From NCBI RefSeq assembly GCF_023734135.1, contig NZ_AP025730.1:5332001-5396000 (forward strand): 64,000 nucleotides of DNA. The letters are read 5' to 3'. Positions 16,378 through 54,699 of this stretch are shown here, piece by piece. Position 1 is the first letter of the stretch, and each line of letters opens with the position of its first letter. Source of the DNA: Sphaerotilus microaerophilus (lineage in GTDB: Bacteria; Pseudomonadota; Gammaproteobacteria; Burkholderiales; Burkholderiaceae_C). A model generated the notes under the pieces. The model saw only the letters and a list, made by a program, of their open reading frames with translations. It had not been told where the DNA came from and made no database searches. A program made the translations under genes and the position numbers.

Positions 16378-19073
<2,696 letters not shown>

Positions 19074-33055: not shown

Positions 33056-33163
33056 GGCAGGTGGCGGGTCGGGTGGCGGATGAAGCGATGCTAGTGACGC
33101 CCGGACACAACCGGCCTCCCCCCAAAGGGGGAAGCCCGCCACCCCCAAGCGACCGCCCCAGCC

Positions 33164-33177
33164 TTGAACCAGTTCAA
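33164..33177. promoter_or_regulatory. Dnr/Nnr-type box upstream of cobA-nnrS
   Basis: TTGAA-CCAG-TTCAA is a perfect inverted repeat of the FNR family, differing from the uspA box in the fifth base of each half. Its centre (33170.5) is 42.5 bases before ATG 33213; a class II position would put the transcript start at the ATG, so either the mRNA is leaderless or the box works from another position. Confidence 0.75.
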
Positions 33178-33212
33178 GGACGCCCGGCCCCCACGAGGCC
33201 GACGATGTGGCC

Positions 33213-34121: not shown

Positions 34122-35420
34122 TTGGCCGCATCCGCATCCCGGCTGCTGGCCCAGCTGCTGGCCCGGCTGCTGAGTGCCCCGCACCGCCTGCTGTTCACGG
34201 CGGGTGCCCTGGCCTGGGTGGGCATCGCCCTGTGGTGGGCGGTGGTCTCGGTGCTGACCGCGCTCGGCCACGCCCCGCCCTGGGCCGTCGCCCCGGCGGG
34301 CGCCCACGCGCTGGTGCTGGCGTTGGGCTTCATGCCCGCCTTCATCGCCGGCTTCCTGTTCACCGCCGGGCCGAAGTGGCTGGCGCTGCCACCAGTGGCG
34401 GTGCGCCCCCTGCGCGGGCCCGCCGCTCTATGGCTGGCCGGCTGGGCCCTGGCCCTGCCCGGCCTGCATCTCGACGCACGCGGGGCCGCCGCCGGCACCA
34501 CGCTGGCCGCCCTGGGCTGGACCGGCCTGTGCGTGCAGCAGCAGCGGCTGCTGCGGGCCAGCCGGTTGCCCGCTGCCGACCGCCTGCATGCCCGTGCGAT
34601 CGGCTGGGCGCTCTGGTGGATCGCCGCGGCCCTGGCCGCCGCCGCACTGGCCCTGGTCACCGGGCCGGACCCGCAGGCCCTGCGTGCCGCGGCCCGGCTG
34701 GGGCTTTGGGGCGTGGCCAGCGTGTTCATCACGGCCGCGCACCGGCTCACGCCCTTCTTCCACCCCGCCTGGCTGCACCGCCTGCCCGGCGGGCTGCTCG
34801 GACCGCTGCAGGTGGGCCTGGCACTGCGCGCAGCGGCCGACATGGCGGCGCTGGGCCTCGGCCCGGCCTGGCCCGCTGCGGCGCACCTGGGGGCCGCAGC
34901 CGGGCAGGCCACTCTCGCCGCAGCCACCCTCGCCGCCGCGTTCGACCCGGCGCTGCGGGTGGCCCGGCGCACCGCCTTCGTGCGCTTGCTGCATGTCGCC
35001 GTCGTCTGGCTGGCAGCGTCGTGCGCGCTGCAGGCGCTCACCCACGGCACCGCGGCCCGCGGGCAGCCCGGAGGCTGGGGCGACATCGCGTTGGCCGCGC
35101 TGCATGCCGCGACGCTGGGCTTCATGCTCACCACGCTGCTGGCCATGGCCAGCCGGGTCACGGCCACGCAGCAGGGGCGCGCGGTGGCGGTCGACCGCCC
35201 GCTGCGCTGGTTGTTCCGGCTGCTGCAGGCCACCGCGCTGGCGCGCCTGGCCGCATCGCTCTGGACCGGTGCGCCGGCCTGGTGGCTGCCCGGTGCAGCG
35301 GTCTCATTGGCCCTGATCGCCGTTGCGTGGATGGTTCATCCAGGCCGATTGCTGGCCGCCGCGCCCCGAACGCCTGGATCCTTGAACCGCTTCAAGGAAA
35401 AAGACCCCCTGCGTCCCTAG
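34122..35420 (+). CDS. nnrS: NnrS family heme-copper membrane protein
   Basis: The 432-residue polytopic protein (about twelve helices) has the NnrS motifs PHRLLFTAGALAWVG, HALVLALGFMPAFIAGFLF, ITAAHRLTPFF and LHAATLGFMLTTLLAMASRV. NnrS helps cells cope with nitric oxide and often lies in NO-regulated clusters. The start is TTG at 34122, 12 bases after cobA. The last coding stretch contains the Dnr-type box of norC, so the nor promoter is inside this gene. Confidence 0.88.
   Translation: MAASASRLLAQLLARLLSAPHRLLFTAGALAWVGIALWWAVVSVLTALGHAPPWAVAPAGAHALVLALGFMPAFIAGFLFTAGPKWLALPPVAVRPLRGPAALWLAGWALALPGLHLDARGAAAGTTLAALGWTGLCVQQQRLLRASRLPAADRLHARAIGWALWWIAAALAAAALALVTGPDPQALRAAARLGLWGVASVFITAAHRLTPFFHPAWLHRLPGGLLGPLQVGLALRAAADMAALGLGPAWPAAAHLGAAAGQATLAAATLAAAFDPALRVARRTAFVRLLHVAVVWLAASCALQALTHGTAARGQPGGWGDIALAALHAATLGFMLTTLLAMASRVTATQQGRAVAVDRPLRWLFRLLQATALARLAASLWTGAPAWWLPGAAVSLALIAVAWMVHPGRLLAAAPRTPGSLNRFKEKDPLRP
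35382..35395. promoter_or_regulatory. Dnr/Nnr-type box of the norCBQ operon, inside the 3' end of nnrS
   Basis: TTGAA-CCGC-TTCAA is a perfect FNR-family inverted repeat. A TAGCCT hexamer at 35418-35423 is at the -10 spacing for a class II promoter (box at -41.5), which predicts a start near 35430 and a 22-base leader ahead of norC with a GAGGAGG ribosome site. Confidence 0.85.
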
Positions 35421-38307: not shown

Positions 38308-39363
38308 ATGCGCACCCCACCGTTTTGCGCGACGGCGACATCCTTGGCTGCTCCTGCCTCCTCCTCCTTGCCCCTGCAGCGTCGCCGTCGCCTCTTTCAA
38401 GTGGGCTTCTTCGCCCTGTTCCTCGTCGCGCCCATCCTCGACTGGCTGCGCTTCGACCTGAACCAGACGCAGCTGTGGTTCCTCGGCCAGCGCTGGTCAC
38501 TGGGCATCGATGACTTCCTGGCCGGGCGCCTCAGCGCCAACGAAGCCGCACTCTCGATCCTGCTGCGCGCCTTCCTGCCCGCGATTCTGCTGATCGCCAC
38601 CTTCCTCGGCGTGGCCTGGCGCTACGGGCGCCTGTACTGCGGCTGGCTGTGCCCGCACTTCTCGATCGTCGAGACGCTCAACCAGACCCTGCACCGCGCC
38701 AGCGCCAAGTACAGCCTCTGGGACCGCAAGCGCACGCCACGCGCCGACCGTGCCCCGCAGCGCCGCTGGTGGCCGCTGTTCTTCCTCGGCTGCGTCGCCT
38801 TCGGCTTCCTCTGGAGCATCACGCTGCTGAGCTACCTGCTGCCGCCGGCCGAGCTCTGGAGCAGGCTGTTCAGCGGCAGCTCCACGCCCAACCAGGCGCG
38901 CTTCCTGGCCATCGGCACCGCCGTCTTCACGCTCGAATTCGCGCTGGCCCGCCACCTGTTCTGCCGCTTCGGCTGCGCCGTGGGCCTGTTCCAGAGCCTG
39001 GTCTGGATGGCCAACCCGAAGGGCATGGTCGTGGCCTTCCAGCGCAGCAAGGCGCGCGACTGCCGCAGCTGCAGCACCACCGCCTTCCCCGACGGCGCCG
39101 CCTGCGACGGCGGCTGCCCGATGCGGCTGAACGCCCGCAACATCAAGCGCATGATGTTCTCCTGCGTGCAGTGCGGCCAGTGCCTGAGCACCTGCGAAAC
39201 CTCGCAGACCGCCCACCAGCGCGAGCCGCTGCTGACCTGGCAGATCGGCGCCGACGCGGTGGCCGAGACGCTGCGCCAGCGCCGTGCCGAGCTGGACGCC
39301 GACCGGCAACCCCCATCCCAACCCCGGTCCCACCGCCCACCAACGACTACCGAGGTGCCCTGA
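38308..39363 (+). CDS. Membrane-bound 4Fe-4S polyferredoxin in the nor cluster (CcoG/NapH/NosR-like)
   Basis: The 351-residue protein has about five membrane helices, then two cysteine clusters: CRSC...CDGGCP and CVQCGQCLSTC, for two 4Fe-4S centres. Two further Cys-Pro/Cys-Gly motifs, CGWLCPH and CRFGC, follow helices as in NapH, NosR and CcoG. It lies between norQ and norD, with a TGATG overlap into norD, so it is expressed with the reductase. It may move electrons or act in metal-centre assembly; neither is shown. It is clearly distinct from the true ccoG at 48375, which is longer and has a C-terminal Ig-like domain. Confidence 0.8.
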   Translation: MRTPPFCATATSLAAPASSSLPLQRRRRLFQVGFFALFLVAPILDWLRFDLNQTQLWFLGQRWSLGIDDFLAGRLSANEAALSILLRAFLPAILLIATFLGVAWRYGRLYCGWLCPHFSIVETLNQTLHRASAKYSLWDRKRTPRADRAPQRRWWPLFFLGCVAFGFLWSITLLSYLLPPAELWSRLFSGSSTPNQARFLAIGTAVFTLEFALARHLFCRFGCAVGLFQSLVWMANPKGMVVAFQRSKARDCRSCSTTAFPDGAACDGGCPMRLNARNIKRMMFSCVQCGQCLSTCETSQTAHQREPLLTWQIGADAVAETLRQRRAELDADRQPPSQPRSHRPPTTTEVP

Positions 39364-42639: not shown

Positions 42640-42722
42640 CAGGCGGCAGACTTCAGACTTCAGCGGGGAGCGTGCGGTCAACGACCGGCAGGTGCGGAAC
42701 CGAGCTTAGCCGGCCAGGGGGC

Positions 42723-42736
42723 TTGATGACCATCAA
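42723..42736. promoter_or_regulatory. FNR/Anr box between MFS and glutamate-cysteine ligase genes
   Basis: TTGAT-GACC-ATCAA matches the FNR consensus at all ten defined bases. The centre is about 90 bases from each of the two divergent ATGs (42639 and 42822), so it may serve either or both. No good -10 is visible at the exact class II distance on either side. Confidence 0.8.
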
Positions 42737-42821
42737 GCGGCGCGCGGGCTCGCCTGCGCCATCGGCCAGCGCTGGGCGGACGATAGGCGCAGCCGCCAGA
42801 CCCGAACGAGGAGCCACCGCC

Positions 42822-44318
42822 ATGGGCCAGGAGATCAGCGCCAGCGAGTTCAGCGCCGACGATGTCGCCCGCTTCGAGCAGGCCCTGCGCGCCGAGACGG
42901 CGCTGGCGCGCGAGCTGTTCGCCCGGCATGGCTATGCGCCGCGCACGCGCATGGCGGGCTTCGAGCTGGAGGCTTGGCTGCTGGACCACAACGGCTTCCC
43001 CAAGCCCTGCAATCAGAGCTTCCTGGCGCGCATGGCTGACCCGCTGGTGGTGCCAGAGTTGTCGCGCTTCAACATCGAGCTCAACGGCACGCCGCGGCCG
43101 CTGCAGGGCGCGGCGCTGTCGCTGCTGGAAACCGAGCTGGCCAACACCTGGGCACGCTGCCTGGCCAACGCCCAGGCGGACGAGGCCACGGTGGTGGCCA
43201 TCGGCACGCTGCCGACGCTGCGCGAGGCGGACCTCGACCTGGCCAGCATGACGCCCGCACGGCGCTACCTGGCGCTCAACCAGCAGGTGCTGGCCGCACG
43301 CGGCGGCCGGCCGCTGCGCCTGCGCATCGCGCCGGGGCAGGCCACCGACGATGCCGCCCGGGGTGCGCTGGACACCAGTCACGCAGACGTCATGCTGGAG
43401 GCCGCCACCACCTCCTTCCAGGTCCACCTGCAGGTGCCGGCCGCCCAGGTGGCACGGCACCTCAACGCCTCGATGATCCTCAGCGCGCCGCTGGTGGCGC
43501 TGGCGGCCAATGCGCCCTTCCTGTTCGGCCGCGCGCTCTGGCACGAGACGCGCATCCCGCTGTTCGAGCAGGCGGTGGATTGCGGCGAGGGCAGCGACGA
43601 CAGTGACGGCGCCGGCCTGCCGCACGACCTGGGCCGGACCGACCTGGCGCACCTCGGGCGGCGGCGCGTCAGCTTCGGCAGCGGCTACGTCGGCACCGAC
43701 CCGACCGAGCTGTTTGCCGACAACCTGGCGCGCTACCCGGTGCTGCTGCCGCTGGTGAGCGAGGAGCCGCCGCAGCGCTTTGCCCACCTGCGGCTGCACA
43801 ACGGCACGCTGTGGCGCTGGAACCGGCTGCTGATCGGCTTCGAGCCCGACGGCCGGCCGCACCTGCGCATCGAGCAGCGCGTGATGCCCGCTGGCCCGAG
43901 CGTGGCCGACATGATCGCCAACGCGGCCTTCTACTACGGCTGCGCCCACATGCTCGCCACTGCGGCGCAGCCACCCGAGGCGCAGTTGCCCTTCGACGCC
44001 GCGCGGCGCAACTTCTACCTCGCCGCCCGCGACGGCCTGGGCGCGACGATCCGCTGGCTCGATGGCCGCGACCACCCGGTCACCGAGGTACTGGCCGAGC
44101 TGCTGGCGCAGGCGCGCGAGGGCCTGGCCCGGCTGGACATCGACACCGCCGACCGCGAACGCAGCCTGGACCTGCTCGCCGCGCGCCTGCGCACCCGCCG
44201 CAACGGTGCGGCCTGGCAGCTGGCCCACCACGCCCGCCACCACGACTTCTTCCACCTCACCGCCGACTACCTGGCGCACCAGCGCAGCGGCCGGCCGGTG
44301 CACGAGTGGCCCCTGTAG
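42822..44318 (+). CDS. Glutamate-cysteine ligase family protein (GCS2 type)
   Basis: The 498-residue protein has GFELEAWLLDHNGFPKP, SRFNIELNGTPRPL, and TSFQVHLQVPAAQVARHLNA, all of which fit the GCS2 fold of ATP-dependent glutamate-cysteine (or similar amine) ligases. An ACGAGGAG site precedes ATG 42822. No glutathione synthetase follows; an M14 deacylase does. A role in glutathione supply under NO stress is possible given the FNR box, but a different gamma-glutamyl product cannot be excluded. Confidence 0.8.
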   Translation: MGQEISASEFSADDVARFEQALRAETALARELFARHGYAPRTRMAGFELEAWLLDHNGFPKPCNQSFLARMADPLVVPELSRFNIELNGTPRPLQGAALSLLETELANTWARCLANAQADEATVVAIGTLPTLREADLDLASMTPARRYLALNQQVLAARGGRPLRLRIAPGQATDDAARGALDTSHADVMLEAATTSFQVHLQVPAAQVARHLNASMILSAPLVALAANAPFLFGRALWHETRIPLFEQAVDCGEGSDDSDGAGLPHDLGRTDLAHLGRRRVSFGSGYVGTDPTELFADNLARYPVLLPLVSEEPPQRFAHLRLHNGTLWRWNRLLIGFEPDGRPHLRIEQRVMPAGPSVADMIANAAFYYGCAHMLATAAQPPEAQLPFDAARRNFYLAARDGLGATIRWLDGRDHPVTEVLAELLAQAREGLARLDIDTADRERSLDLLAARLRTRRNGAAWQLAHHARHHDFFHLTADYLAHQRSGRPVHEWPL

Positions 44319-44329
44319 AAAATCGCCTG

Positions 44330-45472
44330 ATGCCTGTGATCGCCGACCTCGCTGCTGCTGCACCCCTCACTCCGCCCCCGCCCCTCACCCGCCTCGACCT
44401 GACCCGCCTGGCGGATCTGCCGCCCGGGCTGCTCGACACCCGGGCGAGCGACCTGCATCGCCTGTTTCCCGGCCCGCTGCTGCTGCACCTGCCCGGCCAG
44501 CGCCGGCCGGAGCTGTTCGTCTCGGTGCTGCTGCATGGCAACGAGGACGTGGGCTGGGTGGCCCTGCAGCAGGTGCTGCGCCACGCGCTCGCCCACGGCC
44601 GGCAGGAGCTGCCGCGTGCGATGACGGTGCTGGTGGGCAACGTGAGCGCCGCCCGCCACGGCCTGCGCCGCCTGGACGGCCAGCCCGACTACAACCGCGT
44701 CTGGCCCGGCGGCGAGAGCGCTCTCGGCACACCCGAGCAGGCGCTGATGGCCGAGGTGCACGCCCGGATGCGCGAGCGGGCCGCGGCCGACGGGGGCGCG
44801 CTCTTCGCCGCCATCGACCTCCACAACAACACCGGGCTGAACCCGCACTACGGCATCGTCAACCACCTGGACGCGGCCAGCCTGCACCTGGCGCGCATGT
44901 TCGCGCGCACCGTGGTGCTGTTCCGCGGCGTGCCGGGCACGCAGACGGCGGCCTTTGCGCCGCTGTGCCCGGCCGTGGCCGTCGAGTGCGGCAAGCCCGG
45001 CGTGCCGGCCAACGAGGCAGCCGCGGCGCGCTTCCTCGACGCCTGCCTGCACCTGGCCGAGTTCCCCGCCCACCCGCTGCGCGAGAGCGACATCGACCTA
45101 TACCACACCGTCGCGCTGGTGAAGGTGCGCGAGGACGTGCGCTTCGCCTTCGTCGGCGAAGACGACGACCCTGCCTCCGCTGCCGCCGACCTGCTGCTCG
45201 ACGCCCGCCTGGACCACCTCAACTTCAGGGAGCTGGAAGCCGGTGCCGCGTTCGGCCACACCCGCCACCCGATGCCGCTGGACGTGCGCGACGAGGCCGG
45301 CACCGACGTGGCCGCCGCCTGCTTCCGCACCGAGCAAGGGCGCCTGCGCCTGGCGCTGCCCCTGATGCCCGCGATGCTGACCCTGGACGAGCGCGTGGTG
45401 CGGCAGGACTGCCTGTGCTACCTGATGGAGCGCGTACCGTTCGAGCGGGTGCAGGCGGCCGGCGCCGCCTGA
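44330..45472 (+). CDS. M14 family zinc deacylase (succinylglutamate desuccinylase/aspartoacylase-like)
   Basis: The 380-residue protein has the zinc ligands H69-x2-E72 in LLHGNEDVGW and His165 in AIDLHNNTGLNPHYG, plus AVAVECGKPG with the catalytic Glu. This is the AstE/AspA branch that removes acyl groups from amino acids. It starts 11 bases after the glutamate-cysteine ligase stop, so the pair is an operon; a linked substrate, e.g. an acylated or gamma-glutamyl compound, is plausible but unproven. Confidence 0.83.
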   Translation: MPVIADLAAAAPLTPPPPLTRLDLTRLADLPPGLLDTRASDLHRLFPGPLLLHLPGQRRPELFVSVLLHGNEDVGWVALQQVLRHALAHGRQELPRAMTVLVGNVSAARHGLRRLDGQPDYNRVWPGGESALGTPEQALMAEVHARMRERAAADGGALFAAIDLHNNTGLNPHYGIVNHLDAASLHLARMFARTVVLFRGVPGTQTAAFAPLCPAVAVECGKPGVPANEAAAARFLDACLHLAEFPAHPLRESDIDLYHTVALVKVREDVRFAFVGEDDDPASAAADLLLDARLDHLNFRELEAGAAFGHTRHPMPLDVRDEAGTDVAAACFRTEQGRLRLALPLMPAMLTLDERVVRQDCLCYLMERVPFERVQAAGAA

Positions 45473-45494: not shown

Positions 45495-46406
45495 TCAGCC
45501 GGCCAGGCGCTGCCCCCGTGTGCCGGCAAACGACTGGCGCGCACTGCCGCCGCGCTGCGCGGGGTAGGCGATGGCCTGCAGCGCCGGCAGGTCCAGCAGC
45601 GTCAGCTCGTAGCCCTGCACCTTGACGATGCCGGCATCGGCCAGGCGGCGCAGCGCCCGCGAAAAGGTCTCCGAGGTGGTGCCCAGCTGCGCGGCAATCG
45701 CCTGCTTCAGTTCGGTGAGCACCAGCTTGGGTGCGGCCATGCCGCCCAGGCCGCCCAACCCACCCAGCCCGTCGAGCGCCCCTTCGACGCGGCGCAGCAG
45801 CCAGCGCGCCAGCCGGGCCGGCACGTCGGCGGTGACCACGTCGTGCAGGGTGTCGCTGAGCGTGCGCACGCGGCTGGCCAGCTGCTGGCTCACCGCGCGC
45901 ATCAGCTCGGGGTCCTGCGCGGCGGCGTCGAAGAGGGTGCGCAGCGGGATGGCCAGCAGCTCCACCGGGGTGCGGCACTGCGCGGCGTCCACCCAGGCGG
46001 GCGACTCCGACAGCGCACCGGCCACGTCGAGCCACTCGCCCGGGCCGATCATGTGCTTCTCCACGAAGCCGCCCTGCTCGGCCAGCCAGCCCAGCGACAT
46101 GCGCCCGCGCCGCAGCAGCCACCAGGCCGGCACCGGGTGCACCGGGCCGCCCGGCAGGTCGAGGTTGCCGATGCCGTGGCGCACCACGAGGCTGTGGGTG
46201 CGCAGCCGCTCCAGCGTGGCCTCGCTCGGCCGGGCCGGGGCGAAAGCACGCCGCAGCAGCGCGATGTCCGGGTGGGCTCGCACCGGCAGCCCGGCGAGGT
46301 CGGGCACCGCCCAGGCCTCGCGACCGGGCGACGGCAGCGGGCCATCGGCCAGCAGCGGCCGGGCAGGAGCGTCTTGACGGGTCCAGGTGAGGGGCGAGGT
46401 CTGCAT
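45495..46406 (-). CDS. Crp/Fnr family regulator, Dnr/Nnr-like (NO-responsive candidate)
   Basis: The 303-residue protein has a cNMP-type sensor (about 40-165: WWLLRRGRMSLGWLAEQ, IGPGEWLDVAGAL), a dimer helix and an HTH with TSETFSRALRRL, which keeps the Glu, Ser and Arg that read TTGA half-sites. It lacks the N-terminal Cys cluster of FNR, so it is Dnr-like. A Gly-Leu-Gly repeat (GLGGLGGLGG) is inserted in the hinge before the HTH, absent from its paralog. ATG 46406 with AAAGGA upstream is preferred over ATG 46415. A sigma-54 promoter and three NorR-type sites lie upstream. A close paralog is at 53821. Confidence 0.88.
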   Translation of the reverse strand: MQTSPLTWTRQDAPARPLLADGPLPSPGREAWAVPDLAGLPVRAHPDIALLRRAFAPARPSEATLERLRTHSLVVRHGIGNLDLPGGPVHPVPAWWLLRRGRMSLGWLAEQGGFVEKHMIGPGEWLDVAGALSESPAWVDAAQCRTPVELLAIPLRTLFDAAAQDPELMRAVSQQLASRVRTLSDTLHDVVTADVPARLARWLLRRVEGALDGLGGLGGLGGMAAPKLVLTELKQAIAAQLGTTSETFSRALRRLADAGIVKVQGYELTLLDLPALQAIAYPAQRGGSARQSFAGTRGQRLAG

Positions 46407-46440
46407 GGGAAACATCCTTTGCGTCGATGCACCCTTACAG

Positions 46441-46456
46441 GGCAAGACCCGGGCCA
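46441..46456 (-). promoter_or_regulatory. Sigma-54 (-24/-12) promoter of the dnr-like gene
   Basis: On the minus strand the sequence reads TGGCCCG-GGTC-TTGC, against the consensus TGGCACG-N4-TTGC, with GG and GC at the required 10-base spacing and one mismatch. It predicts a start near 46430 and a leader of about 24 bases before ATG 46406 with AAAGGA in it. The enhancer-like NorR sites lie 66 to 123 bases upstream of that start, a normal distance for a sigma-54 activator. Confidence 0.8.
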
Positions 46457-46495
46457 GGCATCTTCCACGTGAGATCAACGAGTTAGCTCGGCATG

Positions 46496-46553
46496 GGTCT
46501 TTTTTACCATCATCCGAAGAAGGTATAATTCACCACAGAGGGTGATTTAGACC
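46496..46553. promoter_or_regulatory. Three NorR-type binding sites (GGT-N7-ACC)
   Basis: GGT-CTTTTTT-ACC (46496-46508), GGT-ATAATTC-ACC (46522-46534) and GGT-GATTTAG-ACC (46541-46553) all match the GGT-N7-ACC core reported for NorR of Ralstonia eutropha, where three copies precede norAB. The second and third also form an imperfect 13-bp inverted repeat (11 of 13 pairs) with a 6-base spacer. The second overlaps the norR -10 and the third ends at the norR ATG. Confidence 0.8.
46524..46529 (+). promoter_or_regulatory. Candidate -10 element of norR
   Basis: TATAAT at 46524-46529, 24 bases before ATG 46554, is a perfect -10 hexamer; the -35 at the expected distance is only a T-run. It lies inside the second NorR site, so NorR bound there should block its own transcription. 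Confidence 0.6.
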
Positions 46554-48173
46554 ATGACGGAATCCCATCTGCTGCGTGACCTGGCGGTCTGGCTGCCGGC
46601 GGCGGTGCGGCTGCAGCATGTGGTCGACCACCTGAGCGGCGCCTTCGACTGCGACGCGGTGGCCCTGCTGGCGCTGGAGCCGGGCGAGCCGCCGGACTGC
46701 CTGCGCCCGCTGGCCACGGTGGGGCTGGTGCGCGATGCCCTGGGGCGGCGCTTCCGCCTGCACGAGCAGCCGCGGCTGGCGGCCATCCTGGCCAGCGCCG
46801 AGGTGGTGGCCTTTGAGCAGGGCAGCCGCCTGCCGGACCCCTACGACGGCCTGATCGACGCGCGCCAGGGCCAGCCCCTGCCGGTGCACGACTGCATGGG
46901 CATCCGCCTGATGCAGGACGATCGCCCCTGGGGTGTGCTGACGCTGGACGGCCTGACGCCCGGGCGCTTCAACGCCGCCGCCCACGCCGCGCTGCGCCAG
47001 GCCGCCCTGTGGGTGGAAGCCGCCGTGCGCGTGACCCGCCTGGAGCGCGAGAACCACGCCCTGCGCCACGGCCGCGACTGGACGGTGCGGCCCCAGGAGG
47101 ATGCCCCGGCGCTGGCCATGCCGGCCGACGCCGACTGGGAGATCACCGCGCACAGCCAGGCCATGCGCCAGCTGCTCAAGGAGAGCCGCGTGGTGGCCGA
47201 GAGCGACCTGCCGGTGCTGCTGCTGGGCGAGACCGGCGTGGGCAAGGAACTGTTCGCGCGCCGGCTGCACCGGCTCTCGCCGCGGCACGAGAAGCCGCTG
47301 GTGCAGGTCAACTGCGCCGCCCTGCCCGAGACGCTGGCGGAGAGCGAGCTGTTCGGCCATGTGCGCGGCGCCTTCTCCGGCGCCACCGGCGAGCGCGCCG
47401 GGCGGGTCGAGGCCGCACAGGGCGGCACGCTCTTCCTCGACGAGGTGGGCGAGCTGCCGCTGCCGCTGCAGGCCAAGCTGCTGCGCACGCTGCAGAACGG
47501 CGAAATCCAGCGCCTGGGCTCGGACCGCCCGCGCAAGGTGGACATCCGCATCGTCGCGGCCACCAACCGCGACCTGCGCGCGGCGGTGCGCGACGGCCAC
47601 TTCCGCGCTGACCTGTACCACCGCCTGTCGGTCTACCCGCTGCCGATCCCGCCGCTGCGCGAGCGCCGCGACGACGTGCTGCCGCTGGCCGGGCGCTTCC
47701 TGGAGCTCAATCGCGCCCGCCTGGGGCTGCGCAGCCTGCGCCTGTCCGCCGAGGCCGAGCGCGCGCTGCTGGCCTACGGCTGGCCGGGCAACGTGCGCGA
47801 ACTGGAGCACGTGATCGGCCGCGCCGCGCTGCGCGCCGCCGGCCGGCTGGAGGACCGCCACCACATCGTCACCCTGGGGCTGGACCTGCTCGGCCTCGAT
47901 CCGCTGGAGCAGCCAAGCGGGTCGCCCATGGGCACGGCAGCCGGCACGCGCGCAGCCCTGCCCGATGCTGCGGCGTCGCTGCCCGCCCACCTCGCCGCCA
48001 GCCTCACGGCCACGACCCTGAAAGAGGCCACCGACGCCGCCCAGCGCGCCTGCGTGCAGGCCGCCCTGCAGGCCTGCGACGGCAACTGGGCCGCCGCCGC
48101 ACGGCGCCTGGGCGTGGACGCGAGCAACCTGCACAAGCTGGCCCGCCGGCTGGAACTGAAGCCGCTGCGCTGA
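46554..48173 (+). CDS. norR: NorR, NO-responsive sigma-54-dependent activator
   Basis: The 539-residue protein has a GAF domain with the motifs PDPYDG (94-99) and HDC (112-114), which in E. coli NorR surround the NO-binding non-heme iron. The AAA+ domain has Walker A GETGVGK (225-231), a sigma-54 contact loop GAFSGA (272-277) with Ser instead of the usual Thr, and GGTLFLDEVGELPL. The C-terminal Fis-type HTH ends WAAAARRLGVDASNLHKLAR. The gene is divergent from the dnr-like regulator and shares its control region. Confidence 0.94.
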   Translation: MTESHLLRDLAVWLPAAVRLQHVVDHLSGAFDCDAVALLALEPGEPPDCLRPLATVGLVRDALGRRFRLHEQPRLAAILASAEVVAFEQGSRLPDPYDGLIDARQGQPLPVHDCMGIRLMQDDRPWGVLTLDGLTPGRFNAAAHAALRQAALWVEAAVRVTRLERENHALRHGRDWTVRPQEDAPALAMPADADWEITAHSQAMRQLLKESRVVAESDLPVLLLGETGVGKELFARRLHRLSPRHEKPLVQVNCAALPETLAESELFGHVRGAFSGATGERAGRVEAAQGGTLFLDEVGELPLPLQAKLLRTLQNGEIQRLGSDRPRKVDIRIVAATNRDLRAAVRDGHFRADLYHRLSVYPLPIPPLRERRDDVLPLAGRFLELNRARLGLRSLRLSAEAERALLAYGWPGNVRELEHVIGRAALRAAGRLEDRHHIVTLGLDLLGLDPLEQPSGSPMGTAAGTRAALPDAAASLPAHLAASLTATTLKEATDAAQRACVQAALQACDGNWAAAARRLGVDASNLHKLARRLELKPLR

Positions 48174-53820: not shown

Positions 53821-54699
53821 TCAACCCGGCGACGCCCCGACGCGACGACGTGCCGAAAAGGACTGGCGAGCGCTGACGCTCCCCACGGATGGCCAGGCAA
53901 TGCAACCCAGCGCGTCGACATCCAGCACGGTCAGCGCATAGCCCTCCACCTGCACGATGCCGGCATCGGACAGCTTTCGCAGTGCGCGCGAGAAGGTCTC
54001 CGAGGTGGTTCCCAATTGCGCGGCGATCGACTGCTTCAGTTCGGTCAGCACCAGCCGCAACGGCTGGTCGTTGCCACGCGCCTCCAGGCGGCGCAGCAAC
54101 CAACGGGCCAGGCGCGCCGGCACGTCGGCGGTCACGACGTCGTGCAGCGTGTCGCTGAGGCTTCGCACCCTCGTGGCGAGCAGCCTGCCGACGGCCTGCA
54201 TGAGGGCGAGATCCTGGGCGCAGGCCTGGTGGAGCGCACTGACCGGCACCGCCAGCAGTTCGACGGGGGTACGGCACTGGGCCGCCTCGATCCAGGCCGC
54301 CGGCGCAGCCATGGCGCCGGCAACGTCCAGCCACTCTCCCGGGCCGATCAGGCGCTTCTCGGCAAAGAGGTCCTGCTCGGTCTGCCAGCCCAGTGCAATG
54401 CGCCCACGGCGCAGCAGCCACCAGGCGGGCACGGGCGCAGCCGGACTGGAGAGTTGGAGCGGACCGATCGGGTGGCGCACCACCAGGCTGTTCGTGCGCA
54501 GGGTGTCGAGCGACACCTCGGCAGGTTCGGCCGGGTCGAAGGCCCGGCGCAGCAGGGCGATGTCGGCTTCACCCTGCGCATTGCGGCGCCCCCCGGTGCC
54601 GACCGTCGTGGCAGGCGGCTGCGCCAGGGGAAGGCAGGCCATTGCCCGCAGACCGGAACGAGCCTCAGCGGCTGCGGCGGGAAAGGCAAAGGGTTGCAT
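53821..54699 (-). CDS. Second Crp/Fnr family regulator (paralog of the 45495 gene)
   Basis: The 292-residue protein shares most motifs with the regulator at 45495: WWLLRRGRIALGWQTEQ, LIGPGEWLDVAGAM, SLSDTLHDVVTADVPARLAR and LGTTSETFSRALRKL. It lacks the N-terminal Cys cluster of FNR and the Gly-rich hinge insert of its paralog. It lies 34 bases after the PPIase gene and may be the last gene of the nar operon, giving feedback, or control ubiUVT next to it. Confidence 0.87.
   Translation of the reverse strand: MQPFAFPAAAAEARSGLRAMACLPLAQPPATTVGTGGRRNAQGEADIALLRRAFDPAEPAEVSLDTLRTNSLVVRHPIGPLQLSSPAAPVPAWWLLRRGRIALGWQTEQDLFAEKRLIGPGEWLDVAGAMAAPAAWIEAAQCRTPVELLAVPVSALHQACAQDLALMQAVGRLLATRVRSLSDTLHDVVTADVPARLARWLLRRLEARGNDQPLRLVLTELKQSIAAQLGTTSETFSRALRKLSDAGIVQVEGYALTVLDVDALGCIAWPSVGSVSARQSFSARRRVGASPG

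Follow-up and report, generated by a model that had tools for sequence, protein, structure and literature searches.

A NorR-type sigma-54 promoter predicted to drive a Crp/Fnr regulator gene in Sphaerotilus microaerophilus, whose genome retains a canonical Dnr

Ralstonia eutropha norAB and Escherichia coli norVW each have a sigma-54 promoter preceded by three tandem GT-N7-AC sites, according to the available portion of PMC1274295. In the sources as far as they were accessible, NorR is otherwise a local switch for enzymes that remove nitric oxide (NO) and for related proteins. Here we describe a locus with the same site array and sigma-54 promoter in which, in contrast to the NO-removing enzymes of those two systems, the driven gene encodes a transcription factor. 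It lies in a 64,000-nucleotide stretch of the Sphaerotilus microaerophilus genome (NZ_AP025730.1, positions 5,332,001 to 5,396,000), hereafter the window; the genome (6.06 Mb) is designated G000. Our analysis indicates that the gap between norR and a divergent Crp/Fnr gene is very probably a complete NorR-dependent sigma-54 promoter driving that gene, and that the CTTGAA-N4-TTCAAG boxes before the nor and cobA-nnrS genes most likely belong to a separate, canonical Dnr.

The gap (46407-46553, 147 bp) separates norR on the plus strand from the Crp/Fnr gene on the minus strand. Besides three NorR sites it contains an IHF-like site and, on the Crp/Fnr side, a -24/-12 element (Table 1), from whose position a transcript start at about 46430 is predicted; the best start codon of the Crp/Fnr gene is the ATG at 46406, with AAAGGA upstream. 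The IHF-like site was scored against WATCAA-N4-TTR, which we take to be the IHF consensus. GGT-N7-ACC alone is not rare (16 occurrences in the window, 12.1 expected), and -24/-12 matches with at most two mismatches number 31 against 40 expected. Paired sites are likewise common in the genome, since two exact sites 0-30 bp apart occur at 49 places, compared with 17 for a reversed control pattern; the pair at 18810/18839 falls inside a coding frame which, from its sequence, we take to be gyrA-like. Chains of three sites were found at two places genome-wide, namely the norR gap and 2888466-2888532, the latter within a long open frame of coding-like base composition. Of 20,000 shuffled versions of the gap that kept its dinucleotide content, none had three GGT-N7-ACC sites and 14 had two, while a minus-strand -24/-12 element matching at least 10 of 11 positions arose in 8. 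A chance origin of three sites and a -24/-12 element combined in one gap is unlikely.

The norR product scored 660.9 bits with the NorR model NF003451 (cut-off 476) and contains the Pfam domains GAF, Sigma54_activat (AAA+) and HTH_8 (Fis helix-turn-helix). The positions PR74, D95, D98, C114 and D132, which apart from R75 we presume to be GAF iron ligands, are kept in 90 of 91 aligned NorR rows, the remaining row having a gap; the rows comprise 87 loci and four repeats. The assignment of R75 to the iron-ligand site was taken from PMC2941729, as far as that text was available. The GAFTGA loop reads GAFSGA in the window, which is the usual variant in this set (serine in 61 and threonine in 30 of the 91 rows). 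The NorR of the window is thus ordinary and intact, with its iron-ligand positions kept.

NorR was detected at E <=1e-100 in two of the 13 surveyed genomes of the genus, G000 and its congener G248, and the latter carries the same divergent pair of norR and Crp/Fnr gene. Counted from norR, the NorR sites of G248 stand at -58, -32 and -13, the same positions that they have in the window, and GGCCCGGGTCTTGC of the -24/-12 element is unchanged at an equal distance from norR. In an ungapped comparison, 32 of the 33 columns in the sites and promoter are identical between the two genomes, compared with 48 of the 117 others (Fisher p 9e-10), and the IHF-like site matches its consensus at 9/9 positions in G248 versus 8/9 in the window. 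This positional conservation is stronger evidence than any shuffle test.

Surveys of 299 genomes of the family, 399 of the order and 369 of the class, which overlap and which in the case of the family scored at most a few candidates per genome, yielded NorR matches (E <=1e-100) at 87 distinct loci, once three repeats and a duplicate of the G248 stretch had been removed. Three GT-N7-AC sites at the spacing of the window precede norR at 68 of these loci, 40 times in the form GGT-N7-ACC. Among the 68 array-bearing loci, 49 have a -24/-12 element (at least 9 of 11 positions) at a fixed offset from site 1, 39 have an IHF-like site at a fixed offset of its own, and 35 have both; controls with shifted offsets gave 0 and 0. 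The divergent neighbour was defined as the strongest divergent match up to 1.5 kb upstream of norR, which is not always the first gene, and was labelled from one reference protein each, with families assigned by Pfam and the labels Hmp, NorA and quinol versus c-type NorB by eye; three loci have less than 1.4 kb upstream. These neighbours are Hmp (41), quinol NorB (24), NorA with hemerythrin and ScdA_N (9), NrdD (4), multicopper oxidase (2), cNorB-like (1) and NnrS (1), with no match at three loci and a Crp/Fnr gene at two, G000 and G248. Four Crp/Fnr queries (E <=1e-4) run upstream of the 87 norR loci gave no match outside these two genomes. The promoter is therefore of a common type and the gene that it serves here is unusual, since other norR genes mostly face genes for NO detoxification.

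The first step, from NO through NorR and sigma-54 to the Crp/Fnr gene, is well supported by sequence: the elements keep their exact positions in G248, and the module is identical to that at many other NorR loci. An earlier note on this DNA had located the three GGT-N7-ACC sites, the minus-strand -24/-12 element and the 147-bp gap, all of which we confirmed, and had proposed a survey of the gap in relatives, in which the sites and promoter proved to be retained in G248 and the module to stand beside many NorR genes. The note knew of no description of this wiring, and the open-access literature that we searched gave none in which NorR drives a Crp/Fnr gene.

Table 1. Coordinates of features in the window, counted from its first base.
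Feature	Position	Strand	Remarks
Box CTTGAACCAGTTCAAG before cobA-nnrS	33163..33178	.	Identical in G248; most likely a canonical Dnr site
Box CTTGAACCGCTTCAAG before norC	35381..35396	.	Identical in G248; most likely a canonical Dnr site
NorR-driven Crp/Fnr gene, 303 amino acids	45495..46406	-	The dnr-like gene of the earlier note; not the DNR orthologue
Likely ribosome-binding site AAAGGA of the Crp/Fnr gene	46415..46420	-	From sequence
Predicted sigma-54 -24/-12 element TGGCCCGGGTCTTGC	46442..46456	-	TGGCCCG-GGTC-TTGC; 10/11 match; Crp/Fnr side
IHF-like site GATCAACGAGTTA	46473..46485	+	8/9 of WATCAA-N4-TTR; between sigma-54 promoter and NorR sites
NorR site 1 GGTCTTTTTTACC	46496..46508	+	GGT-N7-ACC; kept in place in G248
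NorR site 2 GGTATAATTCACC	46522..46534	+	GGT-N7-ACC; kept in place in G248
NorR site 3 GGTGATTTAGACC	46541..46553	+	GGT-N7-ACC; last base directly before norR ATG; kept in G248
norR, NO-responsive sigma-54 activator	46554..48173	+	NCBIfam NF003451 and Pfam domains
Paralogue of the driven gene	53821..54699	-	67% identical to driven protein, same recognition helix; ends nar cluster

The sole Pfam domain found in the driven protein is HTH_Crp_2 (PF13545), and its match to Pseudomonas aeruginosa DNR (PDB 3dkw) is weak (E 1.4e-6). An AlphaFold2 model (mean predicted local distance difference test score, pLDDT, 81) has the Crp/Fnr fold. The 50 Foldseek matches listed for this model all apparently belong to the Crp/Fnr superfamily, with 3dkw at rank 4; the search indicates a fold and no ligand. 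By its helix-turn-helix and predicted fold, the protein is a member of this superfamily. Close relatives of the gene (E <=1e-50) were found in 4 of 399 family genomes, and a protein search returned 53 relatives at E <=1e-20 among 7,995 candidates scored. Eleven relatives are at least 70% identical over most of the query, including those of the window and of G248, and G267 and G395 have one relative each with 52-53% identity; none close was found in G299 or G170. A contig scan with the driven protein, which detects close relatives only and may have left out the window genome's own records, returned only the G248 record.

The recognition helix of the driven protein, TTSETFSRAL, keeps the S-E pair and is shared with a paralogue (Table 1), which lies downstream of a PpiC gene and a gene we take to be narI-like. 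The driven regulator and this nar-linked paralogue may tune nitrate respiration or transport, through narK-narGHJI or an MFS gene, instead of NO reduction. We consider this possible, though on balance we lean against it. In its favour, besides the paralogue that ends the nar cluster, are a TTGAG-N4-RTCAA box that in both genomes (G000:C1:5397569 and G248:C1:298040) precedes narK-like genes (named by eye) and thereby the cluster with the paralogue at its end, and an MFS gene that in G248 directly follows the driven gene on the same strand after a short gap. However, no site is tied to the driven protein, the nar box could serve FNR or another Crp/Fnr regulator, and the box near the MFS gene of the window (42723) is not matched by any in the G248 stretch compared. 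That box, CTTGATGACCATCAAG (window 42722-42737), equals the DNR consensus given in PMC1274295 and stands between the MFS gene and a gshA-like gene. The gshA-like and AstE-like genes that separate the driven gene from the MFS gene in the window (glutamate-cysteine-ligase-like and AstE/AspA-like; 42822-45472) were not found in the G248 stretch compared.

In our preferred reading, NorR drives the Crp/Fnr gene and the boxes are most likely served by another protein, the canonical Dnr. The gene after norD in G170 encodes a different Crp/Fnr protein, which matches P. aeruginosa DNR at E 1.5e-36; its orthologue in the window genome, 81% identical, lies at G000:C1:5479378-5480193. Orthologues of this canonical Dnr (E <1e-100) are present in 7 of the 15 genomes searched (G170, G000, G248, G299, G307, G267 and G395), and the driven gene was placed far from them in a midpoint-rooted tree with long branches. 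Judged by these comparisons, the orthologue of DNR is not the driven gene but another gene of the same genome, which is far closer by way of the G170 orthologue; the name dnr was accordingly rejected for the driven gene. The canonical Dnr of G000 (L209:5379-6194) has a cysteine-rich insert, CYPGCPKQCGSC, before its helix-turn-helix, where the G170 orthologue has two cysteines. Upstream of the canonical dnr, near -85, G000 and G248 have CTTGAC-N4-GTCAAG and G170 the half-matching ATTGAC-N4-GTCAAG, with a half-site that differs from the one in the CTTGAA boxes. The idea that the driven regulator specifically targets this promoter was rejected, because its box occurs in G170, which lacks the driven gene.

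Exact CTTGAA-N4-TTCAAG boxes were sought in G000 and in the whole genomes of six chosen relatives. G000 has four, before cobA-nnrS, norC, nirS and nosZ (norC was recognised by eye, the other products by Pfam). These four have no reversed control of their own; boxes with one mismatch were not used, since 17 places matched with at most one mismatch, exact ones included, compared with 21 for the reversed control. No box of this type with up to one mismatch was found at 46300-46560. All six wholly searched genomes with a canonical Dnr contain exact boxes (G000; G248, in at least two places; G299; G170; G267; G395), as does the 14-kb piece examined of G307, which also has a canonical Dnr. The driven gene is present in two of these six and so does not track the boxes across relatives. 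G299 and G170 have boxes before norC, of the same pattern as CTTGAACCGCTTCAAG, and before cobA, and G299 has further ones before genes we presume to be nirS and napA. Since neither genome has a NorR at E <=1e-100 or a close relative of the driven gene, and both have a canonical Dnr, the boxes need no driven regulator. The boxes before nor, cobA, nirS and nosZ most likely belong to the canonical Dnr, and binding of them by both this protein and the driven regulator is possible.

A full relay, in which the driven protein binds these boxes and activates norCBQD and cobA-nnrS, as well as nirS and nosZ outside the window, alone or together with the canonical Dnr, seems to us unlikely. It draws on the location of the driven gene in the nor cluster, on the identity of the boxes in both genomes that have the gene, and on a rule, found in the accessible part of PMC1274295, that the S-E helix pair goes with TTGA half-sites. 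The rule fits the driven helix (SETFSR) and equally that of the canonical Dnr (PEYFSR). Against it, the same boxes occur in G170 and G299 with a canonical Dnr and with neither NorR nor close relatives of the driven gene or its paralogue, both G000 and G248 still have the canonical Dnr, and the driven gene is not needed to explain the four exact boxes of G000. The earlier note had proposed a two-step NO relay, and its step from NorR and sigma-54 to the Crp/Fnr gene stands on the G248 spacing and the shared module. Its second step, with the product as a Dnr activating norCBQD and cobA-nnrS, is undermined because the canonical Dnr lies elsewhere and the boxes occur without the driven gene, although the TTGAA-N4-TTCAA boxes themselves are where it had placed them (33164 and 35382) and are identical in G248. 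Also rather improbable, in our estimation, is a nested NO feed-forward loop, in which a duplicated nar-linked regulator would have replaced an NO-removing gene at the NorR promoter and would share the Dnr boxes, so that NorR would indirectly set nirS, nor, cobA-nnrS and nosZ atop the canonical Dnr.

Several observations weigh against the reading that we prefer, that of a NorR-driven Crp/Fnr gene beside boxes of the canonical Dnr. The module is not universal, because 19 of the 87 NorR loci are without the three-site array (further tests were confined to the other 68) and, among those 68, 19 are without a -24/-12 element of at least 9/11 at the offset and 29 without the IHF-like site. In G248 the T of the -24 element is replaced by G, and the TATAAT within site 2 is absent. 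The pairing of norR with a Crp/Fnr gene was found in only two genomes of the sets searched, one of them a metagenome-assembled genome, so that independent support for it amounts to one comparison. A sigma-70 scan of both strands at 46380-46600 found no promoter, and hence none that would account for the transcription of norR itself. As for the boxes, they were absent from G058, the single searched genome without a canonical Dnr and thus one negative only, and the boxed genomes G267 and G395 hold the 52-53% identical relatives of the driven gene.

In the mechanism that we propose, NO would bind the iron centre of NorR, and NorR on the three tandem sites, aided by DNA bent by IHF, would open sigma-54 RNA polymerase at the -24/-12 element, which would then transcribe the divergent Crp/Fnr gene. 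NO would thereby set the amount of a Crp/Fnr regulator, because a transcription factor gene occupies the usual place of a detoxification gene. NorR would probably also limit its own synthesis, since site 3 ends at the norR start codon; autorepression through an overlap of site 2 with TATAAT was rejected, as G248 has no TATAAT there and no sigma-70 promoter was found. The dependence of the promoter on NO and sigma-54, its bending by IHF and its autorepression are what we infer from the DNA. That the NorR sites serve norR autorepression only, with a fortuitous -24/-12 match and another promoter for the Crp/Fnr gene, is very improbable: the sites do abut norR and sequences resembling a -24/-12 element are no rarity in this GC-rich window, but GGCCCGGGTCTTGC persists at the same offset in G248 amid diverged DNA, the element recurs at that offset in 49/68 array loci against 0 at the control offset, and neither strand of the gap has a detectable sigma-70 promoter.

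Two further genes were noted. Between norQ and norD the window has a CcoG/NapH-like membrane polyferredoxin gene (38308-39363), which the nor clusters of G248, G299, G170 and G395 also keep. In G299, a congener without NorR, an Rrf2-type regulator (G299:C1:1558680-1559213; L170:13681-14214), which by eye we presume to be NsrR-like, adjoins an nnrS-like gene and suggests that NsrR and NorR may alternate within the genus.

A NorR promoter that faces a transcription factor gene would show, in this lineage, that rewiring can turn the NorR module from a detoxification device into a regulatory one. The locus would also be a compact natural example of NO signalling in which a sigma-54 activator hands the signal on to a Crp/Fnr regulator, in a genome that retains its canonical Dnr. 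The NorR regulons of beta- and gammaproteobacteria (PMC1274295) and of Ralstonia solanacearum (PMC9045102) have the same module with local wiring, and the targets given in the available parts of these two sources are norVW, norB, hmp, hcp, dnrN/norA and nnrS, with no regulator gene among them. P. aeruginosa DNR (3dkw) shares with the driven protein its Crp/Fnr family and a denitrification setting, and is matched by it far more weakly than by the G170 Dnr (E 1.4e-6 versus 1.5e-36). A Pseudomonas cluster with both norR and dnr is mentioned in PMC10256816, the accessible text of which states no wiring between them. In a Nitrospira metagenome-assembled genome, NnrR is predicted to act on the NorR gene (PMC8510549, in the part available), a similar link in the opposite direction. 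In Bradyrhizobium diazoefficiens, where according to the available part of PMC6710368 FixK2 acts on NnrR, the amount of a Crp/Fnr denitrification regulator likewise depends on one other regulator; that cascade begins with a Crp/Fnr regulator that answers microoxia, whereas the one here would begin with a sigma-54 activator that is signalled by NO.

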